From positions 186,001 to 250,000 of the forward strand of contig JAQOOI010000066.1 in NCBI GenBank assembly GCA_028554645.1: a stretch of DNA of 64,000 nt. The letters run 5' to 3'. The notes beneath the pieces were generated by a model. That model saw nothing but the letters and a program-made list of their open reading frames with translations, did not search any database and had not been told where the DNA came from. Source of the stretch: Omphalotus guepiniiformis (taxonomy: Eukaryota; Basidiomycota; Agaricomycetes; Agaricales; Omphalotaceae). The translations under genes were made by a program, and so were the position numbers. This document shows, one piece after another, positions 4,194 through 58,924 of this stretch. The first letter of the stretch is position 1, and every line of letters starts with the position of its first letter.

Positions 4194-5420
4194 ATGGGCT
4201 CACCGCCAAAACCTTGGGAACGAAATGGCGCTATAACCGCCGCCGCCTCTTCTTTAGTTTCATCTCCCTCTCTTCCAACTACATCTACACCCCCAACTAC
4301 GATGTCTGCTACAACCCCAGCAACTGCGACATCATCGAGCATGGCTACACAGCCAAGTGTACCTGAAAGACCTGCGGCTTTTGCTTCGCCTGCGACGTCT
4401 ACAGCGTTGAGCTCTCCGTATTCGTCGTATAATAGCCCGTATTCTCGTATGGGTGGAGGATATGGAGGGTACGGCTCGTATGGTGGGCTGGGAGGAACGA
4501 TGGGAGGGACGTATGGAGGTTATGGAGGTTATGGTGGACTTGGGTCGTATGGTGGTGGTATGGGATATGGTGGATATGGCGGATACGGCGGTTATGGAGG
4601 TATGGGTATGGGTATGGGTATGGGCATGGGCGGAATGATGGGTCCAAATGGAATGCCTCTAGACGCCAATGGAAACCCAATACCAAGTCTAACCCAAACC
4701 CTCGAAGCAACAACCCAACAAACCTTCGGTCTCCTCCATTCCATCGTCCAAACTTTCACTGGTGTCGCTCAAATGCTCGAATCCACTTTCATGGCTACAC
4801 ATTCCTCATTTTTCGCCATGGTCGGGGTTGTAGACCAGTTTGGTCAGCTTCGTAATGCTCTGGGGAGCGTATTGGGTCTTTTTGGGCTTATACGGTGGAT
4901 GAAAGATTTGCTTACGGGGAAACATAGTTCGCCGGCTGGTATGCAGCATGAGTTCAGGCAGTTTATCAATGGTAAACCCGTTCAAGGGCCTATGGGTCCA
5001 CCACCACCAAAACCGAGTAAAAAACCTTTGATCATATTTTTACTCGCTATATTCGGCGTACCGTATGCGATGACAAAATTGATCAAGGTACTCGCTGCGC
5101 GCGCGGAGGCACAACAAGCTGCTGCTGCTGCTAATGGCATGATTATGCCTGGTCAACCACCACTTGACCCTGCTTCGTTGACGTTCGCGAGGGCTCTGTA
5201 TCCGTTCACGGCGTCGAATTCTTCGGAATTGTCGTTGAAGGAGAACGAGATTGTTGCGATTATGGGTAAATTTGACCCACGTCAGGGTGTAGAGGTTGAT
5301 CCGAGGTTGGAGGTTGAGGCAGAGTGGTGGAAGGGGCGAACGAGGGATGGTAGGGAAGGTTGGTTCCCTAAGAAATGGGTTGAGGTGTTGCAGCGGAAAA
5401 CACCAAAGACTGTTGATTGA
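4194..5420 (+). CDS. PEX13: Peroxisomal import protein Pex13
   Basis: This is an intronless frame of 408 residues. It begins with the PPKPWE motif typical of Pex13 N-termini. It continues with a Tyr-Gly-Gly-rich stretch (about 85-155), a conserved helical region (about 165-245, including VDQFGQLRNALGSVLGLFGL), a hydrophobic segment (about 279-303) and a C-terminal SH3 domain (about 329-400, with ALYPF at the start and EWWKGRTRDGREGWFP near the end). Pex13 sits in the peroxisomal membrane and forms the docking complex with Pex14 and Pex17. Its SH3 domain binds Pex14 and Pex5, and the YG-rich region can form a meshwork for cargo passage. Length and domain order match fungal homologues. The start codon is fixed by the conserved PPKPWE motif that follows it. 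Confidence 0.95.
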   Translation: MGSPPKPWERNGAITAAASSLVSSPSLPTTSTPPTTMSATTPATATSSSMATQPSVPERPAAFASPATSTALSSPYSSYNSPYSRMGGGYGGYGSYGGLGGTMGGTYGGYGGYGGLGSYGGGMGYGGYGGYGGYGGMGMGMGMGMGGMMGPNGMPLDANGNPIPSLTQTLEATTQQTFGLLHSIVQTFTGVAQMLESTFMATHSSFFAMVGVVDQFGQLRNALGSVLGLFGLIRWMKDLLTGKHSSPAGMQHEFRQFINGKPVQGPMGPPPPKPSKKPLIIFLLAIFGVPYAMTKLIKVLAARAEAQQAAAAANGMIMPGQPPLDPASLTFARALYPFTASNSSELSLKENEIVAIMGKFDPRQGVEVDPRLEVEAEWWKGRTRDGREGWFPKKWVEVLQRKTPKTVD

Positions 5421-6012
5421 GAGGGTGTGTTGTTGGTTTTTCTTTCTTTAATTTTATTGGCTCTTTTGCTATCGTTTCTTCACTTGTATAGTCGTTCGTT
5501 TTTCTATTTCATGAATATACATATTTCCGTGAAAAACAACGAGTCGCTCACGAGTTTCCGAGAGAACGTCATGAAAACGATTGGAAGGAAGAGGAATGCA
5601 GGAAACAGTATAAGTAGACATCGCTACGTCGAAAGCATTGGTGACCCCCCTTTTGACTCGGACTCCTTTTCAATCAGACTCGCTACATAATCTTCAATCT
5701 ATCACACACAGGACTTACTGTACCGCAAGCTAAAGCCCTCATTCAGGAACTCCTGGGTGTGGGCGTTCGGAACCAATTAGTTAACATTCCTTTCCGAACT
5801 CACCTCATTTACACAAGACATACAACTACATTTGCGAAAGCTGGCGTCATCTAGGCTATCTAGGCTGTTGCGTATACGAATACCACTACCGTGACCTCTT
5901 CTCGAATTCTAATCAGTATTGGTAGACCGGAATACGAACAGAGATATGTAATGAAAGTATATATGTACTATTACATCAAAACGATTAAACAACAGCAAGC
6001 ATCTTATAAAGT
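5421..6012. other. Intergenic, convergent 3' ends
   Basis: The region lies between the PEX13 stop and the stop of the minus-strand membrane protein gene. It is AT-rich with T-runs near 5440-5475. No coding signal was seen. Confidence 0.4.
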
Positions 6013-7270
6013 TCAAACAGAATGTTTCTCAAGCGTACTAGAACTCCTCCCTCTATTTTTATTTTCCCTCCCAACACCAACAACGTTCAAGTTCCCAATT
6101 TCCGACCGACTCGAATACATAGTCTCACTCGGATGTGGTCCAGAAGTAAACTCCATCCTCGTACTAAAATGTGTCATCGTATCCGTATTCCACGCACGTC
6201 CAAGAGCAACTCTGTATATGATTGCTTGCGGGACGAGTACCTATTTCGACAGTCCATCAGTTTATCAGTTTAGCTTCAAACCGAAACCGAAACCGAAAAG
6301 AACGCGCGAAGAAACTCACCCCAATAATCGACCATATAAACAAAAACGCAGGTCCTTCATCAAGATTCTTCCCATATACCACAGCCGTAATAATCCCAAA
6401 AACAGTATACGGCAACGCAGATTCAATCAAAATCGCAACTGGACCAGTATACTCCGCTGCTTCACCAGGCATAACAGCACGAAGTTGTATACGTGCTTCA
6501 AAAAGTCGATAAAGGATGATACCCGTAACTGAAGCATTGAATCCTGTTGCGAGAGCGATTTGAGGCGTAGCGAAGTTGACGGTGGTACCGTTGAAAAAGT
6601 TACTACCGGGTGTGGCGCTTTGTATGATTGTTAGTATTACCATGGCTGTGAAGAAGTTGATTTGAGTGGGGTGTTAATGATGAGGGAGGAAAGGAAGTGC
6701 GCACCTGTTGATGCGAGGTAGAGTATCAGAGGAGCGATGATTATGCGGATGCTTCTGTTCCAAACGACATAACACCGATACAACAAAAGACAAAAAATAC
6801 ATCAATGAACGTCGACAGTGAACCCAAGACCAAAAAAAAATCCTCACCAAAAGCGCATCACCAATAAGACCAGCCAAAGAACCAGCCGTAGTTCCCAAAG
6901 TCTGCCACCAAACCGAACTATTCACAGTCAAATACCCAAGTGGATCACCAAACGTCGTCCTAAAATCAATCCACATAAACTGCATAAAAACCATATCGAT
7001 AATCGTTCCGATAGTTATCAACGCAAGCATTGTTCCTCCTAGGAAGATGTACAACCCGAGTCCGATGTTTTTTAGAGCTGGGGAGGTTCGGTAGAGGTAG
7101 ACTGAGTGGAGGAATAGGTATACTTCGATGCCTGAAATCACGCATACGTGACATGAGTATCATACTTTGAGCCCTGGCCCACTCGTTCAATACGCACCGT
7201 ATAACATCGCCATGAAAATGATCCCCCAGAAGAAGGACCGCTCCAAGTTGGGCGCAGGAGAGTCGGACAT
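6013..7270 (-). CDS. Polytopic membrane protein of a basidiomycete family
   Basis: The model has five exons (7270-7198, 7131-6848, 6780-6705, 6645-6320, 6240-6013) and 328 residues. It has about seven hydrophobic segments. Family-typical pieces include YRCYVVWNRS in the middle and QAIIYRVALGRAWNTDT near the end, followed by a Ser/Arg-rich cytosolic tail. These match a large Agaricomycete family of seven-helix-like membrane proteins of unknown role (inference from memory of the family). Four boundaries are canonical. The second intron (6847-6781) starts with GT but would end in TTG instead of TAG, directly before the conserved YRCYVVWNRS. The gene therefore uses a rare TG acceptor, is spliced differently, or carries a splice mutation. 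The start MSDSPAPNLERSFFWG is typical of the family. Confidence 0.7.
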
Positions 7271-7842
7271 CGTTAGGGAACTGTGTGGGGGCCTAAAGGG
7301 GGGTAAGGACGCTTGATGCCGCTACATACTATACAGTATTATAGCTTCCCAAATGCCTTCCCTCGTGCCTGTCAACTGTATCGGGAAGCCATGAGTGTCC
7401 CACAGTAAGCATAAATCATTCTCGTGTTTCCTCCGCAGGATATAATCTCGGCGAGTTTTGGCTTCTCGGGGTAAGTAGCCACGACCGAGAATATCGTGGG
7501 CGTAATGGTTTGAGTGGAGGCTGGTGAGGGGGGACGGAGCCAAAGTTGAGGTGTGGGAAAAACTGATTCAGACTTCCCGCCTGCCAGTGTCACTCAGACT
7601 CCCATCTTCTGATTCTGTACTTACATGTTCCTTTCGAGATATGAACTCAATGAATCTCGGCATGTATCATACAATTCATCAACCATCTTGGTTACATCTG
7701 CTTCATCACGTCTGAAAAAAAGATCGTTGCTGTGCTTCACGCCTCAGGTACAGTGTGTATCATGATATTATAGTACTTAAGACTCTTCAGAGAACCCCCA
7801 CAGACCACGCACCAATCTTCAAAACCCTACGACTGATGAGAA
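7271..7842. other. Divergent intergenic region
   Basis: The region lies between two divergent start codons, so it probably holds both promoters. No coding frame with splice signals was recognised, and no obvious TATA box was singled out. Confidence 0.4.
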
Positions 7843-8851
7843 ATGTTGTCCTTTCTTCGACCTCGTAGATTTCTTTACTCCCCTTTGGATCAGGTACCTG
7901 AACATTCGACGTCTTCTCCCGGCGAAGAAGGTAAGGAAGTTCTAAAAACAAAACTCATCTCGCGAAACAAGCTTACAAGTCCACAACTAACAATCTTACT
8001 TGCTTGCTTGCTTCCTATGTAGGTTCACATCCAACCAAAACACCCACACGCTACGCAATATGGATAATATCAATCTGCGCTATCCTCGACACAATAGCCC
8101 TAACCTACCTCTCCATCTTCCTCAACATCCATCAAGCCGAACCTCCCATATCATTGAATGATATATCACTAAGAAGCACTTACGTGGGATTAGACGAACT
8201 TTATCTTCACAAGGGATTTAAAAGTATCCCAAGAGGACCAATAAATAATCTCCCGATACTCTCAACGCAAGTCGACGCTTCGAAACCTAATAGGGTCGTT
8301 CCTCCTTGGCGGGAACTTCGTCTTACGGCCCGTGCGTCTGTTCAGTTTAATGATCGTAGGTTTTTTGTTAGTCCTCAGGTAAGACCCTACCATATAGTAA
8401 CCCCAGAGAAGAAAACAATACTAACTCTTTCTTTCAGATATCGACAATAGTCCAACTCCACGCCGTCGATTACGGAATGGAAAACTGTTCCATCACATTA
8501 ACAGTTCCTCCTCCTCCTTCTCCTGATGTCTCCCCTAAAGATCCCACCGTATCCCCAACACGTATCAACAACGGCAGTATAATCAATATCTTCGAACTAT
8601 CCTCCTCTCACCCCCTCGATACCCGTTCACTCTCATGGGCAACAAAACCCTCTCGAAAACGCCACATAGGCGCCTTTCCTCTAACATATGATACAACACT
8701 CCAACTTCCGGGATTTCATTGCGGGACGGCGAGTTATATGAATTTTGAGATGGCTTGTGCGGAAGATTCGGATTGTTTGTTTGAGAGTTATGCTGATAAG
8801 TATGAGGCGGTTGGTGAGCTTTTTTTGTCGTTTGTGGTCACCCATCAATGA
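7843..8851 (+). CDS. Single-pass membrane protein, But2-C-terminal-like family
   Basis: The three exons are 7843-7930, 8023-8378 and 8438-8851 (285 residues, phases 1 and 0, GT-AG). A short cytosolic N-terminus is followed by one hydrophobic segment (about 40-62, IWIISICAILDTIALTYLSI). The luminal part has family-like landmarks: YVGLDELY, the Pro-Arg-Gly-Pro-Ile-Asn-Asn-Leu-Pro stretch, ISTIVQLHAVDYGMENCSI, a Pro/Ser stretch and a Cys-containing C-terminus. This organisation matches a common Agaricomycete family often labelled with the But2 C-terminal domain name; that assignment is from memory. Its function is unknown. It is divergent from the membrane protein on its left and convergent with the UstYa-like gene on its right. 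The very C-terminus could be spliced differently, since GGTGAGC near 8813 resembles a donor. Confidence 0.7.
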
Positions 8852-9123
8852 ATGCATCATGGCTCATATTTTATTCTTAGGGCTATATATTCGACAGTAT
8901 CAGACGATATAGTTCCTGTGCCAGGACAATGAATGGATGGGTAGTTTTTCAATTCAAAAGCTATACTAGGACAGTTCTCATATCATACTCCGATATAATA
9001 ATAGTATAATGTTACATCCCATGCTCTAATGCGCCACTCCTAGAATAAGTATCCAACCTAAGCATCCCAACCCAACCCAAATCACATCACATCAACCTAT
9101 CCCTATCTACACCTACACTACAC

Positions 9124-9985
9124 CTACACCCCAACTCGACTCCTCATCTTCATCTTCTCCCCATAAACACGTTGATTCTCTCTAACCGCCGCATATACCT
9201 CCTCCCAATCCCTACACTTATAAATATCAGGAAACGCATTAGGCGTACTCTTCCCCATAATCGAATCTGCATCCATCGTACTACGACATAACACCATCTG
9301 TCGAAGATAATTAACGCAGTGATGTTCTAGTTCCGTCCTATCACCATCGGGCCCATCCCCATCCCCATCCCGTGCCCTACCGCTTGCACCGCTGGCACCA
9401 TTGTTTTTAATTACTGGGGATGCGCTACCGCTGGCACCACCACCACCACCACCACCATCAGCCTCAGCCTCAGCCTTCCAACTCGCAACAACACCCCTCC
9501 TCAACAACCCAAGACACCGAAGTTGATGAACCATAGAAATCGAAAACGGTAAATCATTTTCACCGAGATATATCAGTCCCTTCCCATCATCACCTGGAAT
9601 CAATGCTTCCCATTCTGCATCAGCGCTCGCCGTGTCCTCCGTGCCGTCGTCGTCGTCGTCGGCGTCGTCAAGTCGGAAGTGAACCGAAGTACGTTCTATT
9701 AATGTGTGGATGATTTTGAGTGGGGGGAGAGGCCATTGGAGGGGGTAGGTTTCGTCTGTGAACGCTGGAGTGGAGTTTGAGTTTTGAGTTTTATGAAGAG
9801 GGGGGGAGGGATGAGAGGTACGTACTGTAGTTTTGTTTCTGTTGTAGGAATGAATCCTTTGGAAGTTCAGGTAATCCCACCGATCGACGAGTTGGAGGGT
9901 TCCAGGATTTCTCAAATGAACTGAGAAAGATATGTTTCGTGACGAAAAGGAAGGTAAAAGCGACGAGAAGTTGAATGGAAGGCAT
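9124..9985 (-). CDS. UstYa-like (DUF3328) oxidase A
   Basis: The model has exons 9985-9826 and 9755-9124 (phase-1 intron of 70 bp) and 263 residues. It starts with a short N-terminal membrane anchor (about 3-22). A conserved ETYPLQWPLPPLK stretch follows, then the paired signature of UstYa-family proteins: HQLRCL (about residue 150) and EHHCVNYLRQMVLC (about 210). UstYa-type proteins are membrane-anchored oxidases that install side-chain macrocycles, hydroxylations or related changes on fungal RiPPs such as ustiloxin and cyclochlorotine. The usual first motif is HxxHC. Here it reads HQLRC, losing one His, so activity may be altered. A Gly-, Ala- and Asp-rich insertion separates the two motifs, and an Asp run precedes the first. 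It is transcribed divergently from oxidase B. Confidence 0.82.
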
Positions 9986-10501: not shown

Positions 10502-11181
10502 ATGAAGATCACTGAACACGTTCAAACGTTGGCTTACTGTTGTCTTGCTCTGCTGTCCGTATGGTATACCTTCGATCTCATCCAATTCACGAAGACGGTG
10601 TACGACTGGTATAGCGGGAAATCATATCGTGAGTTTTCGTGTCTTGTTCCCGGACAACATGCGAAAGAGTTAACTTACCCTGTATCGTATCAGGTTTTGA
10701 ATCGGGGTATACACCTCGAGGATTAACATTAAACTTCGGAAACGACAAACCCGTCCTAATGCAAGTCGAAGAATCCGTTCACTACAACCAAGCAGACCAC
10801 ATCGCACGAAAAGAATGGGCATACAACTTCCCAAAGGGAGACGGAATGTTCCACTACGGACCTTCCCACCAAGCATTCGGTATATCAATCTACCACGACC
10901 TCCACTGCGTTCAATCAATATCCAAACAACTCGGAGGAGGAGGAACCCAAATGGAAAAAAAACACCTCGAACATTGTTTTCAACTCCTCAGGCAAATGAT
11001 TTTATGTAACCCTGATTTGACACTTGAGAGGAGTGATTTTATGAAGAGAAATTTTACGAATGGGAGAGTTGGGGAGCTTCATGTTTGTTGGGATTGGCAG
11101 CGGCCTTATGATGCGTCGACGATGGATTGGATTGAGTGGGATAGATGGAGGAAGGCGAATGGTGTTGATCAAGGTGGGTAA
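10502..11181 (+). CDS. UstYa-like (DUF3328) oxidase B
   Basis: The exons are 10502-10628 and 10694-11181 (phase-1 intron of 65 bp, GTGAGT...ATCAG), 204 residues. An N-terminal hydrophobic anchor (about 10-30) is followed by the complete family signature: HDLHC (about residue 113) and HLEHCFQLLRQMILC (about 140). Both HxxHC-type motifs are intact, unlike in oxidase A. UstYa-family enzymes act on precursor peptides in the secretory pathway, in keeping with the membrane anchor. An in-frame ATG at 10445 would add 19 residues. I chose 10502 because it places the hydrophobic anchor near the N-terminus, as usual. Its neighbours are the divergent oxidase A and, 1.7 kb downstream, the first of three candidate precursor genes. 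Confidence 0.87.
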
Positions 11182-11715
11182 CTGATTGATAATTCGAGGC
11201 TTGCGAATTGATGATATTCTCCAGAGCGTTATCCAATAACATAGAAGAAGCTATTACAGTAGTACGTTGTTGAGTTTTTTCAACGCGCCCTTTGGGGGTC
11301 GACGTCAATCGGAATCCTTTAAATAATACGCAATTCACCAGCCTACAGACCGACTGTGAACAGCCTGAGATTGGTTTGAGGAACGATACAACAGGATGCT
11401 CACCTTTCAAACATCCCAAATACATCTCTTCGGTTTCGTGCGTGAATTAGTATTGAAGTTCGTTGAGTGCGGGAGCTCAAGTGCTCACAGCGCTCACCGG
11501 CACCACCGCCGCGGCACCGTATTTGACTGTATTTACATTCATTCGAACGCTTTCACTGCTCTTCTAGATCTCGCTCTTCTGGATGTATCGTACATATGTA
11601 CATGTTTCAAAGAATTGATACCTCTAAAACACACATCGTCACGTCATCCTCATATTTTCTCTGCGCAAATCTCCGCTTTTCCGGGCGTTTATTGGATCTA
11701 CCGGAGGTGCATTAA

Positions 11716-12290
11716 TAGCGGCAGGGCCAGTTTCATGGGATTGTCAATGTTCAGGGGACTGTTGATTATCCTGTGGCATTCCACTATGATCCGCTCCCTT
11801 CCCAGATCACGATGGCGCTGCTTTTCCCAAGTACAACCGCGCGGACTACACAGTGCAAGGCGAAACTGATGTCTTCAGAGGCTCTTTCAAGTTCGTTGGA
11901 ACAGTGGCGTCTCGCGAAGGACAGCTTGCGTTGGGAGAACTGTAGTTATGCACACCAGGTTTGTTCGTCTCTATTGGTTTGCTGCGGTTCCGAATGACTG
12001 ATGACGTGGTCGACTAGTAGCCCTGAACTATGTCAGTTTCACCCCGCCTCATTCTTTAGTGTATTGACGTTGGCATTTTAGCTGTTGACTCGACTAGCGG
12101 TGTAGAATGGCGGCGAGTTGAGCTGCTCTGCATATCCGCAGACAAAACTCCCTCCTGCATCACAAACATGCCTGCCTGGTAAGGTTCCTCGAATTCAAAC
12201 TCTAAAATCACTGATACATTTTCGATCTAGTAAAACATCATTGGCTAGAAATTTTTCTCCTGAAGAGATTCCCTCATATCATTAGAGTTC
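11716..12290 (+). pseudogene. Possible broken or unresolved gene between oxidase B and precursor 1
   Basis: Several short frames look protein-like and are flanked by splice-like sites. One runs from about 11716 to a GT at about 11960, with VDYPVAFHYDPLP and LRWENCSYAHQ. Another lies at 12082-12179 with GVEWRRVELLCISADK, ended by GTAAGG. I could not join them into one consistent reading frame, and no domain is recognisable. They may be relics of a third tailoring gene or chance frames. The stretch 12556-12838 (with SSGIARFTLLWNENN and TELRFYVHC) is similarly suggestive and unresolved. Confidence 0.25.
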
Positions 12291-12453
12291 TGGAACTTGC
12301 CATGCCAGGCTCGGCATCCCATCATGACGTTTTGAATCTTGTTTCGGGCTCTTTGATCTCAATTGACGATCACTCTCGAATCTAACCTGTGCGCCATTGC
12401 TCTTTGTCGAACGTCGCCTCGACCATGTTTCCCTCTTGACGAGTCATTCAAAC

Positions 12454-12464
12454 TTGACGGTTTG
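12454..12464 (+). promoter_or_regulatory. TTGACGGTTTG copy upstream of precursor 1
   Basis: This 11-mer is identical to two overlapping copies in the divergent oxidase promoter (10284-10294 and 10292-10302). It lies about 400 bp upstream of the first precursor start. A TATA-like atataaaa lies near 12777, close to the precursor start. A shared transcription factor is possible but unproven; an 11-mer can recur by chance. Confidence 0.3.
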
Positions 12465-12865
12465 GTACCGCCTCGACACTGCTTTTTTGGGGTTTCTACA
12501 GTTCAAGTGGTACATCAAAGACCTGGATCCCTAGTTTCCCTCGGTACGACCGCTGGTGGATACACCTTTTTCGTGCATATTAGTCTCATCTGGCATCGCT
12601 CGTTTTACACTGCTGTGGAACGAAAACAATGCTGTCTTGGAACCGTGCGATGACTCCAAGTTACATATCAGCGGTCAAGCACGGACTGTAAACATGACAG
12701 TGCCTGACTACATATCCTGTACAGAACTGAGATTCTACGTGCATTGTTGTGACTCTACCGCAGCCACACACGAAGATATAAAACACCTCGACTCGAGTGA
12801 TTCGAATCCATATTTCTTCTTAATACCCTCTCTACGTTAATTATCCTTCAACTTCCTGCGGCGCT

Positions 12866-13134
12866 ATGAAGTCAACTTTCTTCGTTAACACTGTCCTCTT
12901 TTTCCTCGCATCTACGGTCTACGTGCAGAAGGTGGTAGGAGCTCCAATGCCACAAGGCTGCTCCCAAGATCTTGGGTCCGGTACGTTTTGCTGCGTTTTC
13001 TTGCACTATACCTCGATGATATCTAACATGTGTTTTTTACAGCGGATGAACGTCCTGACAGCGGTGATGATGATGATTCTACTACTACGACAGCTACAAG
13101 TACACTCGTCTCACGGAAGTGTGACTGGTGGTAG
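12866..13134 (+). CDS. Candidate RiPP precursor peptide 1 (C-terminal CDWW)
   Basis: The exons are 12866-12980 and 13043-13134 (62-bp phase-1 intron, GTACGT...TTTACAG), 68 residues. It starts with a hydrophobic signal peptide (about 1-25, likely cleaved after VVGA). The block PQGCSQDLGS-ADERP follows, split by the intron after the Ser. Next come an Asp/Thr-rich spacer, a basic Arg-Lys pair and then CDWW before the stop. The same layout, intron position and intron length recur in the genes at 14259 and 15220. Secreted precursors with basic cleavage sites next to UstYa-like oxidases are the hallmark of the dikaritin type of fungal RiPP. CDWW or a slightly longer tail would be the core. The C-terminal Cys-x-x-x also fits a prenylation (CaaX) pattern, but a signal peptide argues against it. 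No database match was available. Confidence 0.7.
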
Positions 13135-14258
13135 ATGCAGGTTACATTCACTGGCTTTGATATAGTAAGTCACATCATCTTTTTTCTAATGGCACTGTAC
13201 TAACAGTGCTGCAGGCTATCATATACCCACTGACACGGACAAACCTATCCTATCCTACATAATCATTCGACAACTGACGACTATTCTAATAATACTGAAA
13301 TAACCACCCTTTTAAAGCTATTTATGGTATTTATTTAATGGGACATTTAACGGAATACGATATACCTGTATTAGTAGATATACTTTGTATGTTTTATCGC
13401 TAGTAGCGCAGATCACATCTGCCAGCCAGTTACTAAAATCAGCAATACGGAGATCGGAACTCCAAATTCAGCAGTGCCTCGGCGAATGAACGCTGTAACT
13501 CATCCCGAAACCTCCATGGATCCACCCACCGTGATCGTTGTATACTCCAACTTTGTAACTGTACTATCACAACACCCCTCTGCCCGTTTCGCTCAACGAG
13601 GTCCTCAGCTGTACCATTATGCCCGACGCGGCAATGCTACCGATAGAGGAGGGGGTTTCGTGAGGGTTACTTGTCTCTTGTTTCTCCATATTCCTTGTAC
13701 AATGTATTTCCTTCGTTTTTTGTCATACCTCACCTTGATATTAGGTATCTCCGGAGTCGCAACAGGCAATTTTCGTCAAACTCATGCCATCCTGTACGCA
13801 GCGGTCGTTTGGAAGTCAGTCCAATCGCGGGGTCTAGCCGCTCCTTAAAACTCTGGCAGAGTTGAGCTACATGTTCTGACCAACTAGGTCTACTAGGACT
13901 TTTGACACCATCAACGATGTTGCTCGTTCGATGCCTTAGGCATCCATAAAATCATTCGCTGAGTTTCTTCCCGCTACTTCCTGGTATTAGCCTTGATAAT
14001 GAAACTGATCTACAAGATTGAAAGGTGTACGGTTCTACGCTATGTCCATGACGGTGGCAATACAGCCGACGTTGAAACACTTGATGACCTCCTGTATGTA
14101 TGTCTAAACAACAGCTTTGATAGATTGGCTCGCACTGTAGCGCACTTTGGATGCAACGTTCGGCCCTCTTAATTCACCGGTCATTGGCTTCCCAGAAGCA
14201 AAGAATATAAGGTGTACATGTAAGTACTGAAGCAACAACCCAATTCCTCTTCTCAAAC
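13135..14258. other. Spacer between precursors 1 and 2
   Basis: No convincing gene was seen. A frame at 13474-13848 has some hydrophobic character (FLRFLSYLTLILGISGVA, about 13701-13760) but no recognisable domain. The bases at 13483-13492 would read ANER, like the precursor block, but without the rest of the pattern. A TATA-like aatataag lies near 14205, upstream of precursor 2. Confidence 0.35.
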
Positions 14259-14512
14259 ATGAAATCTGCACATGTTGCTCTTTTATTCCTCCTATCTATG
14301 CTTCAAATGAATTGTGCTGTAGGGGTGGTTCTGCCGAATTCATGCATCCAAGATATGGGCTCAGGTATTTGAATGCATTTGAGACTTGAGTGGTCTACCT
14401 TGATGATTCGAATTTCTACAATATAGCGAACGAGCGACCTGCATCTGACGACAATCGCACTACCACGCAGATAACTAGAAGGGCCCGGGGCGGGGGTTGC
14501 GAATGGTGGTGA
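14259..14512 (+). CDS. Candidate RiPP precursor peptide 2 (C-terminal CEWW)
   Basis: The exons are 14259-14364 and 14427-14512 (62-bp phase-1 intron, GTATTT...ATATAG), 63 residues. It has a signal peptide (about 1-22), then PNSCIQDMGS-ANERP, an Asp/Thr spacer, two basic sites (RRAR), Gly-Gly-Gly and CEWW before the stop. It aligns with precursors 1 and 3 at every landmark. Differences are concentrated in the spacer and in the residue between the Cys and the first Trp. The RRAR site would release GGGCEWW. Such small genes with an intron in the middle are easily missed by automatic annotation. The function as a RiPP precursor is inferred from the family pattern and from the neighbouring UstYa-like genes. 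Confidence 0.7.
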
Positions 14513-15219
14513 TACCTTGCATCCCACCACCAACGGTCTAGCTTTCATGGTGAGTCATACGCTGTAGTCCGTTCCGATGCAGGTTGTGCTTACGTCGCGA
14601 CTTGTTGCAGCTTATAAGGTATAAGTGTGTATCGTATATTCGGCCGCTTCATTGCTGATGTTCCGCAGTCTTCGTTTTTAAGTTAATCTAATTAGAGAGG
14701 CAGCTTGGTGAGTGGCGATGACTCTTGTGCATGACAAAGTTCTGTTGGGGGGCTCTTGTGTAGTATTAGGTGCAGAACTAGTGAATAGTGGCTCATTGTC
14801 TACTAGATTAGAGTCAACCCGAATGGTGGCATATGATTCGATCGATCTTTTGCTTTCCCTTTTGCCGCCCCGGGCCAGCAAAGTCTTGACGACTCGGCTA
14901 CTACAACTCGAAACGACAAAGTAAAGGCAATGAATATTTCTGATTCCAACAAGATTTCAATCATTCTTCTATTTCCTAATATCCGTTTTCGGTTTCTATT
15001 GTCCTCACTGCGACGATACTTGGGTCCGTAAAGGATCTATACTCATCAGTCTGATCTGGCTGGAAGCATGGAAGCATTTTCGTACATAGGTCAGGCTGTG
15101 CACTGAGAAGTAGAAGATAAAGGACACGCTCGAATCCCCTTCGGATTATTCTGGTTCTTTGCTCCATTATCTATCCGGCTTCTCTCTCTGGCTCGCGTAC
15201 AAGTACACTCGCTCAAATC
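14513..15219. other. Spacer between precursors 2 and 3
   Basis: No gene with splice signals or a recognisable domain was seen on either strand. It presumably includes the promoter of precursor 3; a gataaagg sequence near 15116 is the closest thing to a TATA element. Confidence 0.35.
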
Positions 15220-15461
15220 ATGAACTTGAAGGCCACCCAGCTCTTGAACATTGTTCTGTTTTTGCTCTATTGGCAGAAGGTAACAGCCATGCCCGTCGCT
15301 TGTAGCGCAGATTTGGGGACAGGTATGTTATACACGAGTTGTCATTACTCTCGCGTACTTTATCCTCAACAAACGCTTTTGTAGCGGATGAACGGCTGAC
15401 GGAGGATGATTCCGCAAGGAAGAGAGCCGCGGAGGAGGCTGCGCCGTGTATATGGTGGTGA
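15220..15461 (+). CDS. Candidate RiPP precursor peptide 3 (C-terminal CIWW)
   Basis: The exons are 15220-15322 and 15385-15461 (62-bp phase-1 intron, GTATGT...TTGTAG), 59 residues. A signal peptide (about 1-23, ending near VTA) precedes PVACSADLGT-ADERL. A short acidic spacer, the ARKR basic site (Kex2-like), an AAEEAAP linker and CIWW before the stop follow. It is the shortest of the three copies. The intron sits at the same codon and has exactly the same length as in the other two, so the three genes are tandem duplicates of one ancestor. The middle residue of the last four (Asp, Glu, Ile) varies while Cys, Trp and Trp do not. That is what would be expected if those three side chains are the ones modified or recognised. 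Confidence 0.7.
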
Positions 15462-16658
15462 AACTGAGTGTCGGGTAGTACTAGTTGGGCAAGTATTTTT
15501 CAGATATCTCTTCTAGTCATTTACCTGACGCTAATGTCCGACGACACAGAGGTTTCTAATCTTTCATTGCTACCAGAGAACCTACTACATACACACAGCG
15601 GGGTAGTTACGATCATCCCGCCCATAAGGTCTTGCCGCAGAGCGTTACTTACAGTAAAGCCGTCCGTCTGTTATTATTTGCTATGATAGTCATAAACTAA
15701 ACATGATGTCGTTCGTTCTCTATGACAGCTCCTACGGACATAATTATGATGTAAGATGATTTGATCTTTGTTTCAGGCCTAAAATCAATCCCATTAATTT
15801 CAATTAGACACTGGCACTGAGGAGTCTGAAGTGAACCAAGATAGATATGTATATGGAATATTAATGTATTGTTTGATGAAAGTACGGCGTGGTCAGAGAT
15901 CCGGTATCATCATATACGAATGCCCGTTGGAACCCTGAGGATCAATGTTCATGACACCCCGTTCATCATACGAGATACATAGTAAGTATTTCTGTTCAAG
16001 ATCTTCAGCTAGCTGATCTTGAGTGAGCGACGGGTCACCTGGCGACATTCTAACCCAGCGTACGTATCAAGAGTGACCTCTGTGACAGTGGTTTTCCTTG
16101 GTTTTCACCCTTTTTCACCGGTCTCTGCATTTTCCCGAATCTACTCATAGTAAGCTCGATGTCCGGGACATCAATCTACGTTCAACATTCATTCATCAAT
16201 CCTTCAATTCATCAAAGAGGGTGATAACGGGGTAACCGAAAGCTTCGGAATTCGGTCATAAGCAAGTATCGAGAATCAGGCGAAATGCAGGGCATACAGT
16301 ACCATATACATAGATAGATAGAGTAGAAAGTTAGAATCTTTCAGGATACTTAACTCGGGAAGAGACCTACATGCAACGCCGCAAAGATTCAATCCAGTCC
16401 ATCAGTACTCGGAGTCCGGACCCCCCATCCTACATAGTTTCATTTCCTCGTAAGTGATGGTGATGGAGGATTATGCATATCCTTGATCGAAGTATCAGTC
16501 TTCCTTCTTCTTTGATGAGGAACGTGAAAAAGCAGTGTCCGTCCCGCAATAAGTAGGGTTGATGATCATTGCGCAGACCTATGTAAATAGGGCCTTCAGC
16601 CCATTGAAACAGTCCCTGAAACTATCTATACTCCCTTTGCGCTCTCAAGATTGAAGCA
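15462..16658. other. Intergenic between precursor 3 and the GNAT gene
   Basis: About 1.2 kb without a recognisable gene. No fourth C-x-W-W precursor was found here on either strand by searching for TGGTGG followed by a stop. Confidence 0.4.
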
Positions 16659-17796
16659 ATGTCATATTCCGTTCGAATCCTGAAAGACCCATCAGGTGCG
16701 TTCTCACTTCACTTCCAAGTACCCCAAATGACGAGACTTACCGCTGAACGAACGAATATCAATCAACTCGCGCGCGTTAAGAGTCCGAACTGGAACAAGC
16801 TGTGAAGATTTGTTCGAAAGCACTGGGACCAGGTTAGTCAGGTCAATATTCTCCCCCGTCGCATAAACAATGGCTGAAAAGTCTTAACCTTTCCTTTGCG
16901 GTGAAAAAGATGACAGTACGAAATGTATGACTGAGTATCACCCCGAGCGAGTACCCACCCTCTTGCGTGCTATGCTGAGGGCAGGTATATCGGACGGTAA
17001 CGTCTTCGTTGCAACCGATCCGAACGATCCCAGTGCGATTCGTTCCGTGGCGATGTCGTTTGGGCCGGGGAAGAAGTTCTTGGATAGGTGCGGAATACAA
17101 GTTTCTATTTGACCTAGGGAACATTACGTGATATCATGGTTCTGTCTAGCGAGAAACAAGCAACACTCGGATGGACAGACTTCTGGGAGACAATAAGCGA
17201 GAAGGGGAAGTCGTGGTGGGGAATAGTGCGTCGTCGCCCGTCATGTTTGAAGCAATGGGAGTTCATTTTGGCTGGGTACAGTTCATCACCGAACATGAAA
17301 AGATGGAAAAAGATGTCTTGGGTGAACAAGTAAGCTGGATTGTTCATCTGAATAGTGACCTGAGACGAAACATTTGAACTTGACATCCAGGGAGGTTTAA
17401 ATGAGTGGTGGATCGACGTGATGGCGACAGACCCTGCGTATCAAAGACGTGGATATGGGACAGCAATCATGAAGGCTATATGCCAAAAAGTGAGTTTGCT
17501 TCTTGTTTTCGTTTATATATTGATACCCATACGTGTCAACCCCCAGGCAATTGCAGACTCGAAGATTGTCGGTCTCGCGACCCAAACTCCTGAAAACGTA
17601 TGTCCCGGGCCATCCCTACTAGTCCTGGTCCTGATGGTGATTATCAATATCGTTTTGACAGGTCGAATGGTATGGGAGCCTCGGATTCAAAGTCAGAAAG
17701 AGCTGTGTGATAACGATGGAACCGTTCGAGGAGGGTAAATCGTTCCCTTCGCATATGATGACTAGGGATCCAACAAAGTGGGCCAAGGCGGAATGA
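16659..17796 (+). CDS. GNAT-family N-acetyltransferase, possible frameshift
   Basis: Exons read by eye are 16659-16695, 16782-16832, 16910-17087 and 17150-17329, followed by three more ending at 17796. The C-terminal half has the GNAT signature: WWIDVMATDPAYQRRGYGTAIM (motif A, acetyl-CoA binding R/QxxGxG/A) and later ATQTPENVEWYGSLGFKVR. GNAT enzymes transfer acetyl from acetyl-CoA to an amine; the substrate is unknown. In the exon 17150-17329, the family-like reading SEKQATLGWTDFWETISEKG and the later FEAMGVHFGWVQFITEHEK lie in different frames. Either there is a frameshift or assembly error near 17215-17245, or a splice form that I cannot see. It lies 1.2 kb downstream of precursor 3 on the same strand and could belong to that locus, though GNAT genes of this type are common in mushrooms. 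Confidence 0.65.
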
Positions 17797-18839
17797 GCAG
17801 AGTATTCAGAGTTTATAGCTTAGAACGTAAGATAAATTGCAAAGAAGGTGGATGGTACCAGAGTCGAATAAAAGTCATGATGATGCCGCCACCACAGGCT
17901 CAGCAGTCGCGGTTCACGTGAACTGGTTTCGACTCTACCACCACCACGAAAGCAAGCGCGGCTCCAAATTAATACTCACAAGCGGGGCATTCAGAATAGG
18001 ATGCTTAGTTCGTTGAAGAAGGAACGAGAAGGACAAGACAAGCCTCAAAGCACGAAGAGTTCATCCAAATACCTGCAATCTAGCGGTGGCAAATTGAATC
18101 GTTGAATCGTTGAATCGTAGGCAACCGTTTGTATTTCCAGGAGTCGCCGCTTTATCGAATTCATGGATATCTACAGTTACGTGAGTTTCTCTTTCAGCGC
18201 CAAACAGAGAAACCGTCTCTTTCCAGGTTACTGCGAAGCAGTGGATGTCGAAATGCAAAAAAACACTTCGGAGGTGCCAGCGCCGACTTTTGGATACCCG
18301 TGTCATGATCAAGCATGAATTATGTGCTGCAGCTGGTGTTTCTACAAGTTCGTTTGAACGAGTGCCAGAGGCTGGGATGGTAGGAGAGGCTATAGGTTAT
18401 TTTGGAGGACAGGAAAACTCAAAAGAATCCCGCTTTCTTACTCTGTGGCTGAAAGTAAGTACGGTTTACGCACTATTTGTCGAGTCGGTTCAAAGTATCA
18501 TCCTTCCGCTTCCTCCATTAAAGATTAACACGCTACTGAACTAAAATATCCATGAACCATCCATACAAAAATACCTATCTATGTATGATCCTCCAACCAC
18601 CAATCGTGTCCGAAGCTCTATAAACGATGAAAAGAATAAGGTAGGTAGCCTTGCACTAGATGAAAGGTTCTTTGGCTTTGTATCAATATATCCGTCACCA
18701 AAAGGAAGAACAAAGCTCTAAAACAGAGGAGCGAGCGAGAGAGAGAACCTCTCTCTCGTGACCCATGGATTCCAAGCGCCCACCTCCAGGTCAAGTCAGG
18801 TTACCCACAACCCACAAGCCGGCCTAGCACACCTAGGCC
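17797..18839. other. Intergenic, convergent 3' ends
   Basis: About 1 kb between the GNAT stop and the Iml2 stop. No convincing gene. A short GA/CT inverted patch (gagagagagaacctctctctc, near 18737-18758) could form a hairpin. Confidence 0.4.
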
Positions 18840-21800
18840 TTACAACCCAACCCCAACAGCCTCAGCCTTCATCCCAATCTCATCTCTAAGCATCGCAATC
18901 CTACTATCCAACCGACTCGATAAATCAGTCGAATTCGTAGCCAACCCCAACGCAACATCAAGTTTCCCTTTCGCATTCCTCAGTACTTCTTCCCATCTCT
19001 GTTTGTACTTCCCTTCTCCCCTCATCTCATTCTCACCCTTCGGACCACCACTAGACTCCTGATTCTGATTCTCGAGATATTCGAGATACTCGATCACTTC
19101 GACTTCTTTTAGGTCTAGTACGGCAAGCTCGAACATCGCTACGCCTCCGATCCAGGTACTAACTTTGATAGTGGCTTGTGAGGCATGAGCAGCTGCTAAG
19201 AACGCTCGTGAAGAAGCAAGAGCTGCTCGTGCGTTTTCCGACGACGTGTATTCATCGTCTTCGTTTGTGGTGCCAGATGTCCCGGTCTCAGCTGCATCAG
19301 CATCGACATCTTCGCCTGCAGAGGTCCCGGTACCCGACTTGTATTTTCTCGATTTCTGGATGAGAACTGCACATCCAAGAGTACGATGTACGATTCCGAG
19401 TAATAACAAGCGAAGAGCAAGTTCATCGGGGGTGTCAAGATCAGCGGGTTCAGAACCAGAGGTAGTGGCTGCGGCGGTGGTGGTAGAGTTGATGTACGGT
19501 GATGAAATCGTCACTGGTGGGGTTAATGAAGCCCAATCTCGAATGTGTGCTTCGGCATTTGAGGGTGATATCCGTGCATGGGTGTTCCAGACTATTTTTT
19601 AAAAAAACAAATAGAATATAGTCAGCTTGCGTCTCGAGAAAGAATTGACAAGGGGGCACGTACATATAGCCAACTCTTCAGCCGGACTAATCCTTATACA
19701 TTCAACATATTTCTTTTCATCCCCACCACGACGTTTTTGCTTTTCCTGGTAGAACGCAACTAAGGAGGTAGGAATACCACATCAGAGTGGGTTTATCCCA
19801 AAGAACCAAAAACAAAAACAAAAAAACCAAAACTCACTCCTCTTCTTAATCAACACCTCAGTAGGTAAATCCTTCCCCCCAACTTTCTTCTTATCAATCA
19901 ACCCAGGAATAGCATCAAAAAGTTCCTGTGCACGAGCAAAATGCTTCGTACGTCGTTCTTGTTCTTGTTCTTGTTCTTCCGAATCGGAAGAAAGTGCGAG
20001 TGAGATATAACACCCCGCAGCGATGAAATAGTACGTCGCGTGAGACCTACGAAACCAAAACCACGAGGGGAGTCAGACATGGACATGAAGGCGGTGTGTA
20101 AATACATAGAATAGAATAGAATAGAATGAGCACGGATGAGCACTAACCAGCTATTCACTTCAGTCATCTTCAAGAACGTCTCTGCAGACTCCGCATATCG
20201 CCTTTGAGAGAGATACGTCCAAGCCAACTCAAACAGCAGCTAATCCACGCACGCACATAAACATGAGCCATCCCCAAGCCCCCCAAAATGGTCGTAAAAC
20301 TCACCAAAGTATCAGCCTGAGCAAACGAATGTCTACCAGGCTTCAACCCATCCTTCAATACCCGTACCGCCCCTTCAGGATCATAACACATTCGCAGAAT
20401 CTTCGCCTACAATAAATACCCAGGGAGAAATTTAGTACATCAGGAAAACAGAATGATACGAATCGACGCCTCGGCCCTCACCCGGTTTAGTATCCATAGA
20501 GATCCATTAGGATACCTCGGTTCTATACTAAAGAACAGAACAACAACAACAAAACAACGTCAATCGTCAATCGTCAATTGTGGGCTCCGACGGAACATTA
20601 TACTGATAGAGAACAAATGATGGGAGAACAAACCGCACCTATCGACAACCCCGCGGTATTGTCGTATAATATGTGCTTCGTCAGCTTGGAAACCTGCTAG
20701 GAGCAGAACGACCCCATGGTAAGTCATGAGTACTAGCCTGCCAAGGGGGGATATTAGATATTAGAACGAGTACGAGTACGTGCGTGCAAAGCAAAGCAAA
20801 GGGAAGGCAAGCGGGGACACAGCGCTCACCCAGCGAAAACACTATGAACATCTTTCTTTGCTGCACTAACAGCAAGTGCTTGAAGAGCAAGATGTCTTGA
20901 ATGTTTGAAACCGAAAAAGCCGACAACAGACCTGTGCAGAAGCAGAACATAATTAGAACCAGATCATTGTCACCGCCGCTGATGATATGACACATTTAAA
21001 GATGGGTAAACCGGAAATAACTCACTGGATTTTCTTGGGTAAGAGTGAGAATACCAAATTGAACAACCCAAACCCTAAAGACACGGTCAATTTCAGTCGT
21101 ATACAAACGATAATAAGTTTTCGGCATACCAAACGCAGTCCCAGCAACAATAAGATCCTCAATAGGCCCATCCGGTTGGAAATTATTCAACCCAGCTTGA
21201 GGAACAGTAAGAGTCGATGACGCAGCACTAGATGTACCACTCCCAATACCACCCCACCTGCCGAAAAAACTCGACTTCTTACTTGCCACTGCCGAAGCTG
21301 CCGCTACCGAAGGCGTAACAGAATTAGATACAGAAACGGCGGAGAGGTTCGATGTAGATGATTTGGGTGTTATAGATGGTGTTGCGGGTGAAGGAGTTGA
21401 GTATCCGTCTAGACCAGTTGGGAATACTGTCTTGTATAGTCTAGGTAAAATGGAATGTGATGTGAGGTGAGGTGAGGTTAGGAACAGGAACACAACGAGA
21501 AGGGGAGGGGGGGGGGGGGACGGACGTACTTTGTAAACTTTGAATGAGCATTATTAAGAGCATACAAACATTGCAAATAACCCATATAAGACTCTGATAA
21601 CGCATTCGTTAACCCAAGTAACACAACCGCATCCGCATTCAAAATTTCCCATTCTAATCCTTCCGCAAACCTCCCCCCATTCCCCCCCGTCCCACCAGTC
21701 CCGCTCCCATTCGAACTTGACCTAGACCCAGACCCTCTAACCCTCTCCTTATCCTTCGCAGCCTTCCTCGTAGCAGCTTCAGCAAGCGCAAGTAACTTCG

Positions 21801-42728: not shown

Positions 42729-45297
42729 ATGAGCACAAGAACAAGGAATCGCTCATCTTCAAATGCGTTGCATTCAAAATCTTTTCATCCTTCACAAGCC
42801 CATCATGCGTCGTCACCCATTGTCCCACCTTCTCGCCCAGCATCAGCATCTATAGCCACATCTAGCCCTAATACAATGGGCATGTCTCTCGCCTCGCGAT
42901 ACGCACATAACCTGAAGGTTCTCCGTAGGAGAGATCCTTCCATCGTCTCCATTTTTGACCAATTTTCTCATGTGTGCGTTTATCACCACAACGGCGAGCG
43001 CTGGGAGAAGCAGGGGTACGAAGGGAGCATGTTTTTGTATGAGCGGGACGAGTATCCGCCTTACGGCTTCTTTATCTTGAATCGGATGGGTATGGACGAT
43101 TATGTGCAGAGGTTATACCCTGAAGACACGATTGGCGCACATGGGAGTTATCTTATGTTGAGGAGCTGGCCGGAGTGGTCGAAGAATAGGGTCAAAGAGG
43201 CAAATGCGAAGATTGGTCCGGGGAAGAGAAATCGCTTTGACCCTGTGTACAAGTGGGATGGCGATATGGACAGCGTGCCCGAGGAGGAGAAGGGCAAGAA
43301 TCAGACAATTGGTCTTTGGATGTTTGCGACCGATGCTAGGGAGCCTATGATTGATGTTTTGCTAAAGTATGTCTTTTTCTTTCTTCTATGATCCCTCTTT
43401 TTTAACGCGCAAGCCAGACTACATACTTATATCAAAGATAATGTACCCTATCCTGAAGAATTCAAGTACGGACCTGACAAGCCACCACCTCCTAATCCTC
43501 ATCTACGTACAACGACCCAAACACCAGGAAGAACACCCTCTGCGGCATCTACAGCTACCACTTCATCTTCTACATCTTCCTCGTATACCAGTACATCTAG
43601 TGTTTCAACACATTCTCGAAACCAATCCCTCAACATAGACGGACCTCCCAAAACAAATGGAAAACGCAGAGGGAAGAACCAGAACCAGCGCGGGAATGCA
43701 CCGGGGGAGGAAACTCCCAAAGCGCCTTCCGTCCAGTTAATGTCTCCTGGCTTTGGTCTGACAGGATCGAACGCAGAGCTGGATAAGCTGTTTGCGAAGT
43801 TGACCGTGGGGTCAAGTTCGAATTCTGCGTCAGAGCCTTCTCCTAGTTCTAGTACAAGCTCGGGCATGGGCTCGAGCTCGTTGATGGCGGCGTTACTTGG
43901 AGGTGTACCCGCTGGACAGCCCCCCATTACTGCAGGACCCACGTCGACGAATAAGATGACGGTGGAAAGCTTGTTCGCTGCGCTGAGCAAGGGTAGTCCG
44001 GTCGAAGCCAAGAAGAATGTCCAGCAGCTTCATTCACGGGGCTCGTCTCTCTCGCTCCGTGGGAGTGACCCCACGGAAGTGCCGAAGAAACGAAAGGAGA
44101 AGGGAAAGGGGAAGGTTACGCCTGCGACGAACGCCGGCGTCGGTCTTAACACGGGCGCCAGTGGACTTGCGCTTTTGAATGATATCTTCGCGTCTGCGAT
44201 GGATAGTCAATCCGTACCGGAGATCGAACTAGAACAAGAGCAACCAGAGCCGATTGAGGTGCATTCGCCCATCCCCACGTCGTCGATGAGGCTACCGTCG
44301 ATCTTGACGCTTACGCAGGATGTAGTAGATCAGCTTCTAGGTGGCGGGACGGGTGTTGAAGGTGATACGATGGGAAGAGATGGGGAGACGGGTGGGGGGC
44401 TCGGGCTTGTTGGGCTTGAGAAGCGGAAGGAAGATGCGGTAGTCGATTATATGAATGCGAGAGAGGATGCGGAGAGTGTCAGGGCTGGGTTGATGGCGAT
44501 TATGGGGATGGGTGAGCCTGTTGGTGGTGGTGGTGGTTTGAAGGTACCTGAAAAAGGTGAAACTGCTGGAGACGTCACGCCAAGAGGAGCTGACTCGGTG
44601 AATGGTTTATCGACGTCGTTTTTGCCGACGGAACCTCACTGGCCTGGTCAGGATGAGGGAGAGGGAGAGGATGATGAAGATGATGGAATACTCGAGTTGG
44701 ATTTCTCTGATACACGTGCGTTGAGTGATATGGGCGTGTTCGAGACGAGGGAGAGGGAGCAGACGATGCAGAGGGCTGCATCGAGGGCTGCATCGAGGAG
44801 CGCGACGCCAGCAGTTGGGTCTGGTGTGGTGCCTGTTGCTGGGAGATCTAGAGCGGGTTCGGGAGCGGTGAGGGTAGTTGTTAATGGGGTCGTTTCTCCG
44901 GCTCCAAGTGCGGCAACGAATGGTGTGGGTGTTGCGAAGAAGCCGACGAGGAGAGGGAAAGGGAAAGGGAAGGACCGTGCGCATGAGGAAGAGTCGTTAT
45001 CTGCGCCCTCGTCTCCTTCAGCGGGTTTGAAGGAGGTCGTCAACGGACATGTCAACGATACAAGAGAGGTGATGAAGGAAAGTTTACTGGACGCTTTGTT
45101 CGCGTCTGCATCTGATAGAATCCCCACGTTGGCGATTCAAAGCAGAGGTGATCTAGCCAGTGAAGTGGTTAGACTCGTTCAGGTGAGTAGTTTGTGTGTG
45201 ACTGCGTTGCGAGGAAACTGACTGAGAGTTCTGGTAGAACGATGCGTCGTTCGTGGACGAGTTGTGGAGAGGGTGGATAGGAAGAACCAACTCTTGA
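42729..45297 (+). CDS. DCP1: mRNA decapping activator Dcp1
   Basis: Exons 42729-43366, 43418-45182 and 45238-45297 give 820 residues in frame. A Ser-rich N-terminus (about 1-50) precedes the EVH1-type Dcp1 domain (about 55-230). Landmarks are ASRYAHNLKVLRRRDPSI, VCVYHHNGERWEKQGYEGSM, LYERDEYPPYGFFILNRMGMDDY and QTIGLWMFATDAREPMIDVLLK. The rest is a long disordered region rich in Ser, Pro and Gly. The C-terminus (DASFVDELWRGWIGRT) is a short conserved trimerisation-like helix. Dcp1 activates the Dcp2 decapping enzyme in cytoplasmic P-bodies. The last exon is only 60 bp, easily lost in annotation. The start codons of DCP1 and snurportin are divergent and 188 bp apart. Confidence 0.93.
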
Positions 45298-57900: not shown

Positions 57901-58924
57901 AAGGATTTAATGGATAGACTTTGCAATCTACTGGCGTAAAGTCTGGCTTCAGCTCAATTGCATGGTCCCAGGGTCTTCGTTCGGGTAAATTTTGGAAATC
58001 GGCTTCATCAAAAACATCCTTGTACTCATTGACGTACTTGTCTGCTTTTGACTCAGTCTTTTTGCCTTTTCCAAAGTCCATACTCCGAAGATATCCATCC
58101 CAATTCAGGTAAAACAACCGATCCCCTTCTTCTAGTTCCCGAACTTCAGCATCGGATTCAGGTTTTAGGTAATACGGTATGTAACCACACTTCTTAGGAC
58201 ATCGATCAAACTTTAAGGTTGAGTCATTCCAATCTATATTGGGGTTATGACGTCTTAACCAATCGAGTCCCAGGAATATGTCCGTTTTGCCTAAATTTGT
58301 AACAGCAAGTTCAATGTGTTCCGCATGATCTCCCATTACTAATCTGACTTCTATGAATCCTTCAATTGAACCATCCTCGTTTAAGGTACCATCAGCATTG
58401 TATACCGGCATCTTTACTGGTAATCTCTTAACAGTTAAGCCATGTCGTTCTACGAATTCTTTATTGACGCAAGAACCCGTTGCTCCACTGTCAAGTAATG
58501 CCGATGTTTCTATCTGCTTGCCACTTTCGATGTCATCGATTGTAACAGACAGCTTGAGATCTCTGCCTTTAGTACCTTTTACGAACCGCAAGTTTTTCTT
58601 GAGTGACTTTATGGCTGTGACGGCTTCGCTAATGTCCAATGACCGGATCTGGGCAACCGTTTCTTCCGATGCTTCCCTGGCCCGACAGGTTGGCATCCAT
58701 GCTCTCAGAATTCCCACCGCTCGTTCTGACTCATCCTCCCTTACTCTCTGTGCTATCCATTCTGGTGAATTCGGCGGATAACGTTCTCTCACAGGCTTTG
58801 AATCGGACTTTGTAGATACTGACGCAAATTTATTCTCAGGATGATTAAATACAAAGTGAAAATTGCTGTCCTTGTGATCTACACTAGACTGTTCCGATTC
58901 TAACTCAGAAGGACCTGTATTCAC
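54998..58924 (-). pseudogene. pol: pol of the Ty3 element, one in-frame stop
   Basis: One reading frame of 1309 codons is interrupted by TGA at 56272-56270. Before the stop, from the N-terminus: retropepsin with LLDSGATGS (about 143), reverse transcriptase with YLDDILVF, RNase H with EADSSDYANGAVLSQ and TDHQNLQYF, and the integrase HHCC zinc finger (HDTVLTGHPG ... CEKCQAT). After the stop: the integrase core with its three acidic residues (GTDLIGELP, HDRGPQY, TNGQTERMNQE), then a chromodomain (VEEIVDSGKYRGGRFGYKVQWKGY...WEP). No ATG opens the frame near the gag stop. It overlaps gag by four bases in the -1 frame, so expression needs frameshifting or re-initiation. As written, the integrase core is not joined to the RT. 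Confidence 0.9.

Follow-up and report, generated by a model that had tools for sequence, protein, structure and literature searches.

Three tandem CxWW-ending precursor genes beside a UstYa pair in Omphalotus guepiniiformis: a probable single-core RiPP cluster in a basidiomycete

The DNA analysed here, a window of 64,000 nucleotides from the basidiomycete Omphalotus guepiniiformis (assembly GCA_028554645.1, contig JAQOOI010000066.1; C69:186001-250000 in our labelling, C1-C80, of the 80 contigs of this 42.5 Mb genome), carries three short tandem genes, P1-P3, downstream of two genes of the UstYa (DUF3328) family. P1 (12866..13134 of the window, plus strand; exons 12866-12980 and 13043-13134) encodes a protein of 68 residues ending in CDWW, P2 (14259..14512, plus strand; exons 14259-14364 and 14427-14512) one of 63 residues ending in CEWW, and P3 (15220..15461, plus strand; exons 15220-15322 and 15385-15461) one of 59 residues ending in CIWW. 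Each gene is interrupted at the same codon position by a 62-bp phase-1 GT...AG intron, predicted from the frame, the splice signals and conservation. The three proteins share the block PxxCxxD[LM]G[ST]A[DN]ER (PQGCSQDLGSADER in P1, PNSCIQDMGSANER in P2 and PVACSADLGTADER in P3). Gene sizes, block and tails were as given in the original prediction, which had been made from the sequence alone, and its shared intron was borne out.

The N-termini of P1-P3 are hydrophobic, and the signal peptides originally proposed for them stand as predictions from hydropathy only. The part that follows holds exactly two Cys in each protein, one in the block and one in CxWW, and lacks Tyr, Phe and His, the two terminal Trp being its only aromatic residues. 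Each gene encodes one putative core, with no repeats. The acidic character given to the spacer in the original prediction fits P1 and P3, with 9 and 8 acidic against 3 and 4 basic residues after the signal peptide, but this part of P2 is balanced (5/5). Similarly, the proposed basic site before the tail is RR in P2 and KR in P3, while P1 has SRK, which is neither. TATA-like boxes precede P1 and P2 only.

Comparison of the three genes with one another against shuffled sequences gave high z-scores for the coding parts (pairs in the order P1-P2, P1-P3, P2-P3): 6.6, 5.4 and 3.9 for exon 1 DNA, 5.7, 6.0 and 4.1 for exon 2 DNA, and 11.2, 8.8 and 7.5 for the protein after the signal peptide. The introns scored lower (3.6, 2.9, 1.4), and the flanking 300 bp scored near zero or below, both upstream (-0.5, 0.3, 0.1) and downstream (0.4, -0.1, -1.4). 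Coding parts have thus been kept and flanks have not, which is the mark of genes under selection.

Both UstYa genes lie 1.7-3.7 kb upstream of the precursor genes, and the neighbourhood named in the original prediction was confirmed by PF11807 matches at both. UstYa-B (10502..11181, plus strand; intron 10629-10693; E 2e-13) has an N-terminal membrane segment and both HxxHC motifs (HDLHC, HLEHC), and the double HxxHC motif is the suspected active site of UstY enzymes (PMC12048977). The literature describes these enzymes as dicopper oxidases which join aromatic residues by cross-links, as in the Tyr-Phe ether of asperipin-2a (PMC12186524). UstYa-A (9124..9985, minus strand, splice sites approximate; E 4.8e-9) is non-canonical, with HQLRC and LEHHC in place of the two motifs. 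Within the genome it is closest to copies at C65:2597.7 kb (45%) and C78:1058.3 kb (44%), and UstYa-B is closest to one at C65:2606.0 kb (39%). All five A-type copies that we read (C69, C65, C78, C79 and C71b) have HQLRC for HxxHC, and in all five the second motif has Leu or Ile for its first His; the three B-type copies read whole retain both motifs. This pattern suggests that A-type UstYa is a non-catalytic or differently acting partner. The C78 and C65 A-type copies are near-identical and are surrounded by more long tblastx matches, which points to a recent duplication. A PDB search with UstYa-B gave no match, and the AlphaFold model of its main exon (8 sequences; mean predicted local distance difference test score, pLDDT, 48.6; predicted template modelling score, pTM, 0.32) was of too low confidence to be used.

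We searched the genome for further relatives of P1-P3 by pattern. The acceptor side of the intron together with the block, a pattern derived from P1-P3 themselves, has 3 sites in the window where 0.09 would be expected. Genome-wide, 70 sites fit the acceptor pattern YAGCNRAYGARCG, compared to 57 in the control; when all 70 (65 distinct sequences) were read, only P1-P3 had CxWW followed by a stop, and only they had the donor-side D[LM]G[ST] block. A stricter donor-side pattern found only P1 and P2 in the whole genome, P3 escaping because an Ala codon replaces the required Gln/His/Glu/Asp-type codon. The CxWW pattern was too unspecific (170 matches vs 106 in the reversed control), and an own-genome search with P1 at E up to 10 returned P1 alone, missing P2 and P3 too. 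Two other candidates were rejected: an acceptor-pattern site near a UstYa gene at C22:2879700 lies inside a multi-spanning protein region and yields no precursor, and a candidate secreted exon at C79:186053 was not convincing.

P1-P3 are part of a cassette in the order multi-spanning protein, But2-type protein, UstYa-A, UstYa-B, P1, P2, P3, GNAT. The multi-spanning membrane protein (6136..7306, minus strand) has no Pfam match but has relatives at other UstYa loci; the But2-like membrane protein (~8050-8851, plus strand, start approximate) has a hydrophobic N-terminal segment and a domain that falls below the Pfam cut-off here; and the GNAT-type acetyltransferase (16659..17796, plus strand; PF00583, PF13508) has several introns and an approximate model. 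A paralogous cluster on C65 contains relatives of UstYa-A, UstYa-B, GNAT and the But2-type and multi-spanning proteins, together with a secreted repeat precursor. Between its two UstYa genes lie the multi-spanning relative (2599.2-2600.4 kb), the precursor (2602612-2603471) and the GNAT gene (2604.7-2605.6 kb), and after the UstYa-B relative comes the But2-type gene (2607.5-2608.3 kb), whose But2 domain is above the Pfam cut-off. The C65 precursor consists of a signal peptide, RPLPSDLAE and then six units of the kind DDALVLPQPDVVF-RKR-TDE, one core per exon, with six introns that are all of phase 1; the cores end in ...LPQPDVVF, and the last unit ends the protein at DVIF. After the signal peptide it has no Cys, and clear KR/RR sites separate its cores. 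The slot of P1-P3 matches that of the C65 precursor, directly upstream of the GNAT gene and on the same strand. Because P1-P3 occupy the slot of a repeat precursor beside the same kind of oxidase pair, they probably encode a family of enzyme-modified peptides.

We counted ten UstYa loci in the genome: C19 (two), C22, C65, C69, C71 (three), C78 and C79. The But2-type family occurs at four loci at E <1e-7 (C69, C65, C71 386.1 kb and C79 189.6 kb), all four adjoining UstYa, and the next match has an E of 0.16. The chance that a random gene lies within 10 kb of a UstYa locus is 0.0042 (computed with nine loci; using ten changes little), which puts the odds of finding all three But2-type loci outside the window beside UstYa by chance near 1e-7. 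Relatives of the multi-spanning protein were found on C69, C65, C22 and C79, all UstYa loci, and tblastx added C71a. Besides its own locus, the C65 GNAT used as a query found the window (24.5 bits) and C20 (23.2 bits), three loci in all; the association of GNAT with UstYa is weaker than that of the But2-type gene. A precursor was recognised at four of the ten loci (C69, C65, C71a and C22). The C71 and C22 precursors are candidates read from the sequence: C71:388210-388632 has three near-identical units of the type TLEELSDEAVDNVLLSAKRF, ~0.8 kb from a UstYa gene, and C22:2884936-2886129 is a many-exon repeat protein with six IFAKDAW-like units, ~2.2 kb from a UstYa match. The six precursor genes are alike in having a phase-1 first intron shortly after the signal peptide. 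The two C19 loci and the one at C71:120.5 kb lack tblastx matches at 1e-4 to either the window cluster or that of C65, and are probably of another kind.

Frame scans of the window (5401-9100, 11150-16149 and 16150-21100) found no P450, tyrosinase, methyltransferase or peptidase at E 0.1, and short exons may have escaped them because the frames read across introns. No dibasic-flanked repeat was found in positions 1-30000, the single match at 1441 being low-complexity, and neither Rfam nor tRNA scanning of the window gave a match. Elsewhere in the window, positions 54998-59023 (minus strand) hold open reading frames of a retroelement with reverse transcriptase, RNase H, integrase and chromodomain matches, and positions 43392-45221 (plus strand) an open frame of 609 codons without a Pfam match.

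Among basidiomycete peptides, amatoxin and phallotoxin precursors have one core per gene, are cytosolic and carry an MSDIN-type leader; to our knowledge they have neither a signal peptide nor a UstYa enzyme. P1-P3 differ from them in starting with hydrophobic signal-like stretches. What amatoxins and phallotoxins would share with P1-P3 is being basidiomycete RiPPs (ribosomally synthesised and post-translationally modified peptides), and the Trp-Cys bridge is theirs (PMC9233826). Dikaritins (ustiloxin, phomopsin and asperipin-2a, from ascomycetes) are similar in having a secretory precursor beside UstYa/DUF3328, basic cleavage sites (as in P2 and P3) and, as in UstYa-B, the double HxxHC motif. 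They are described with repeated cores (PMC12048977, PMC9233826), whereas P1-P3 are three genes with one core each, the core region has no Tyr or Phe, and no tyrosinase, methyltransferase or P450 domain appeared in the frames scanned at 5.4-21.1 kb. The P1-P3 cluster would work like a dikaritin pathway and is not to be classed as a dikaritin, having no repeated cores and no Tyr/Phe core.

The KEPs (Kex2-processed repeat proteins) of basidiomycetes resemble P1-P3 in their signal peptide, short leader and basic sites, although the basic site before the core is dibasic in P2 (RR) and P3 (KR) and only SRK in P1. In Basidiomycota, KEPs beside DUF3328 genes are on record (103 of 1680; PMC7329392), as are KEP cores with a C-terminal Trp (PMC9769878). 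KEPs are defined by at least three repeats (PMC6339444), of which P1-P3 have none, and KEP surveys would omit these genes because they look for repeats (PMC6339444, PMC7329392). The lichen RiPP Clan R2 is also similar, with a UstY homologue, GNAT acetyltransferases and no repeat precursor seen, and a single-core precursor is offered there as one possibility; it differs in belonging to ascomycete lichens and in having a single UstY gene, and no precursor was identified there (PMC12048977).

We believe that P1-P3 encode the precursors for a UstYa-type RiPP cluster of a basidiomycete, organised as single-core tandem genes, and put the probability of this reading at roughly two in three. The RiPP assignment of the original prediction is partly supported: the C65 repeat precursor in the corresponding slot speaks for a UstYa-linked basidiomycete peptide family, while a core of just four residues and a cross-link at Cys or Trp are putative. 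The proteins would enter the secretory pathway by their signal peptides, and the conserved block after it would serve as a recognition leader, with the CxWW-containing C-terminal end as the single core. Oxidation of this core at Cys and/or Trp side chains would be the work of the two UstYa proteins, of which B is canonical and A is not, and proteases at the basic sites would release it. The GNAT may acetylate the new core N-terminus; GNATs in the UstY-type lichen cluster have been linked to N-terminal acetylation by analogy with bacterial RiPPs (PMC12048977). Three one-core genes would here replace the many cores of one repeat protein.

Oxidation would probably fall on the C-terminal Cys/Trp, because nothing downstream of the signal peptide is aromatic except the two Trp; if UstYa-B acts on P1-P3, its likely target is Trp, either alone or together with Cys. 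A more specific version, in which a copper UstYa heteromer of active B and conserved non-canonical A links Cys to Trp by a thioether, or Trp to Trp, within a Cys-x-Trp-Trp core of tetrapeptide scale in the secretory pathway, is one that we put forward tentatively and consider more apt to be wrong than right. If it were true, tryptathionine-like bridges would have been reached independently of the cytosolic amatoxin route, and one-core tandem genes would have been missed by repeat-based mining.

Several observations weigh against the assignment of P1-P3 to a UstYa-type RiPP cluster. The predicted cores differ in length, with four residues in P1 and, assuming Kex2 cleavage after RR and KR, nine in P2 and eleven in P3, and the SRK of P1 is a poor, non-canonical Kex2 site. 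Computed [M+H]+ values for these predicted cores are 609.2126 for CDWW (607.1969 less 2H, 605.1813 less 4H), 1021.4308 for ARGGGCEWW (1019.4152, 1017.3995) and 1246.5561 for AAEEAAPCIWW (1244.5404, 1242.5248), an acetyl group adding 42.0106. The three genes share no promoter words above random. A precursor was not recognised at six of the ten UstYa loci, the C20 GNAT is about as close to the C65 GNAT as that of the window although C20 has no UstYa match, and a relative of the multi-spanning protein lies on C76, also a contig without one. Homologues in other basidiomycetes, proposed originally as a check, did not emerge from 5.8 billion proteins: the P1-P3 alignment gave 9 candidates, none at E<=10, and UstYa-B 52 candidates, none at E 0.001, in a search that covers annotated proteins only and requires shared exact words. 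As a control, the peroxin-13 of the window matched 1758 proteins, Lentinula raphanica giving the best match (63% over 95% of the query); among the 120 listed, those with a name come from what we take to be mushroom-forming fungi. The database therefore contains many basidiomycete proteins, and the misses are weak evidence because of the word-sharing filter.

The second Cys conserved in the leader block also counts against our reading, and because of it a disulfide-closed peptide is a live rival: P1-P3 could be secreted peptides of ~36-42 residues, unmodified or closed between the block Cys and the CxWW Cys with the variable middle as a loop, UstYa acting elsewhere. Exactly two Cys after the signal peptide, one near each end, conserved ends around a variable middle and the lack of a canonical Kex2 site in P1 are what this would predict. 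It leaves the C-terminal WW and the surrounding cassette unexplained, however, and the precursor that fills this slot on C65 has clear KR/RR sites and no Cys after its signal peptide; we regard it as rather improbable. Less credible still is that UstYa modifies the N-terminal block or the whole propeptide, CxWW being a recognition or sorting tail. The 14-residue block is indeed the longest conserved stretch and contains a Cys, but no aromatic residue, and on C65 the cores come after the leader exon, each in an exon of its own.

That P1-P3 are decayed or unexpressed relics of a cluster no longer working appears very unlikely. The departure of UstYa-A from HxxHC would fit this, but it is not local decay, since it is common to all five A-type copies read, and in P1-P3 the frames are open, the splice signals intact and the ends conserved. 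Even less can be said for CaaX-type farnesylated mating-pheromone precursors, a notion to which we give hardly any credence. Small size, several tandem copies and the Cys at -4 are as expected of these, but x-Trp-Trp is not an aliphatic tail, the N-termini are signal-like and hydrophobic while basidiomycete pheromones are described as cytoplasmic (PMC9769878), P1-P3 have no Pfam pheromone match, and none of the 44 STE3 receptor matches in the genome is on C69. These matches, counted at exon level, form a large set on contigs C6, C8, C19, C39, C55, C61 and C78, with C78 weak.

Two reviews give amatoxins/phallotoxins and borosins as the described basidiomycete RiPPs and assign UstYa products to ascomycetes (PMC9233826, PMC12048977). 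In Pleurotus, 16 UstYa genes are reported, 6 of them developmentally expressed (PMC8893723). Within the Creative Commons-licensed PubMed Central literature, as far as its passages were available and with subscription papers mostly outside its scope, neither a CxWW product nor a characterised basidiomycete UstYa product is described, and the family of enzyme-modified peptides encoded by P1-P3 is probably an undescribed one. The O. guepiniiformis genome ties UstYa genes to a recurring cassette of UstYa-A, UstYa-B, But2-type protein, multi-spanning protein and precursor, with GNAT at two loci. This suggests that the precursor of a UstYa cassette need not be a repeat protein, and it gives a search rule: locate the cassette and then look for any short secreted two-exon gene, for which exact product masses can be computed as targets.
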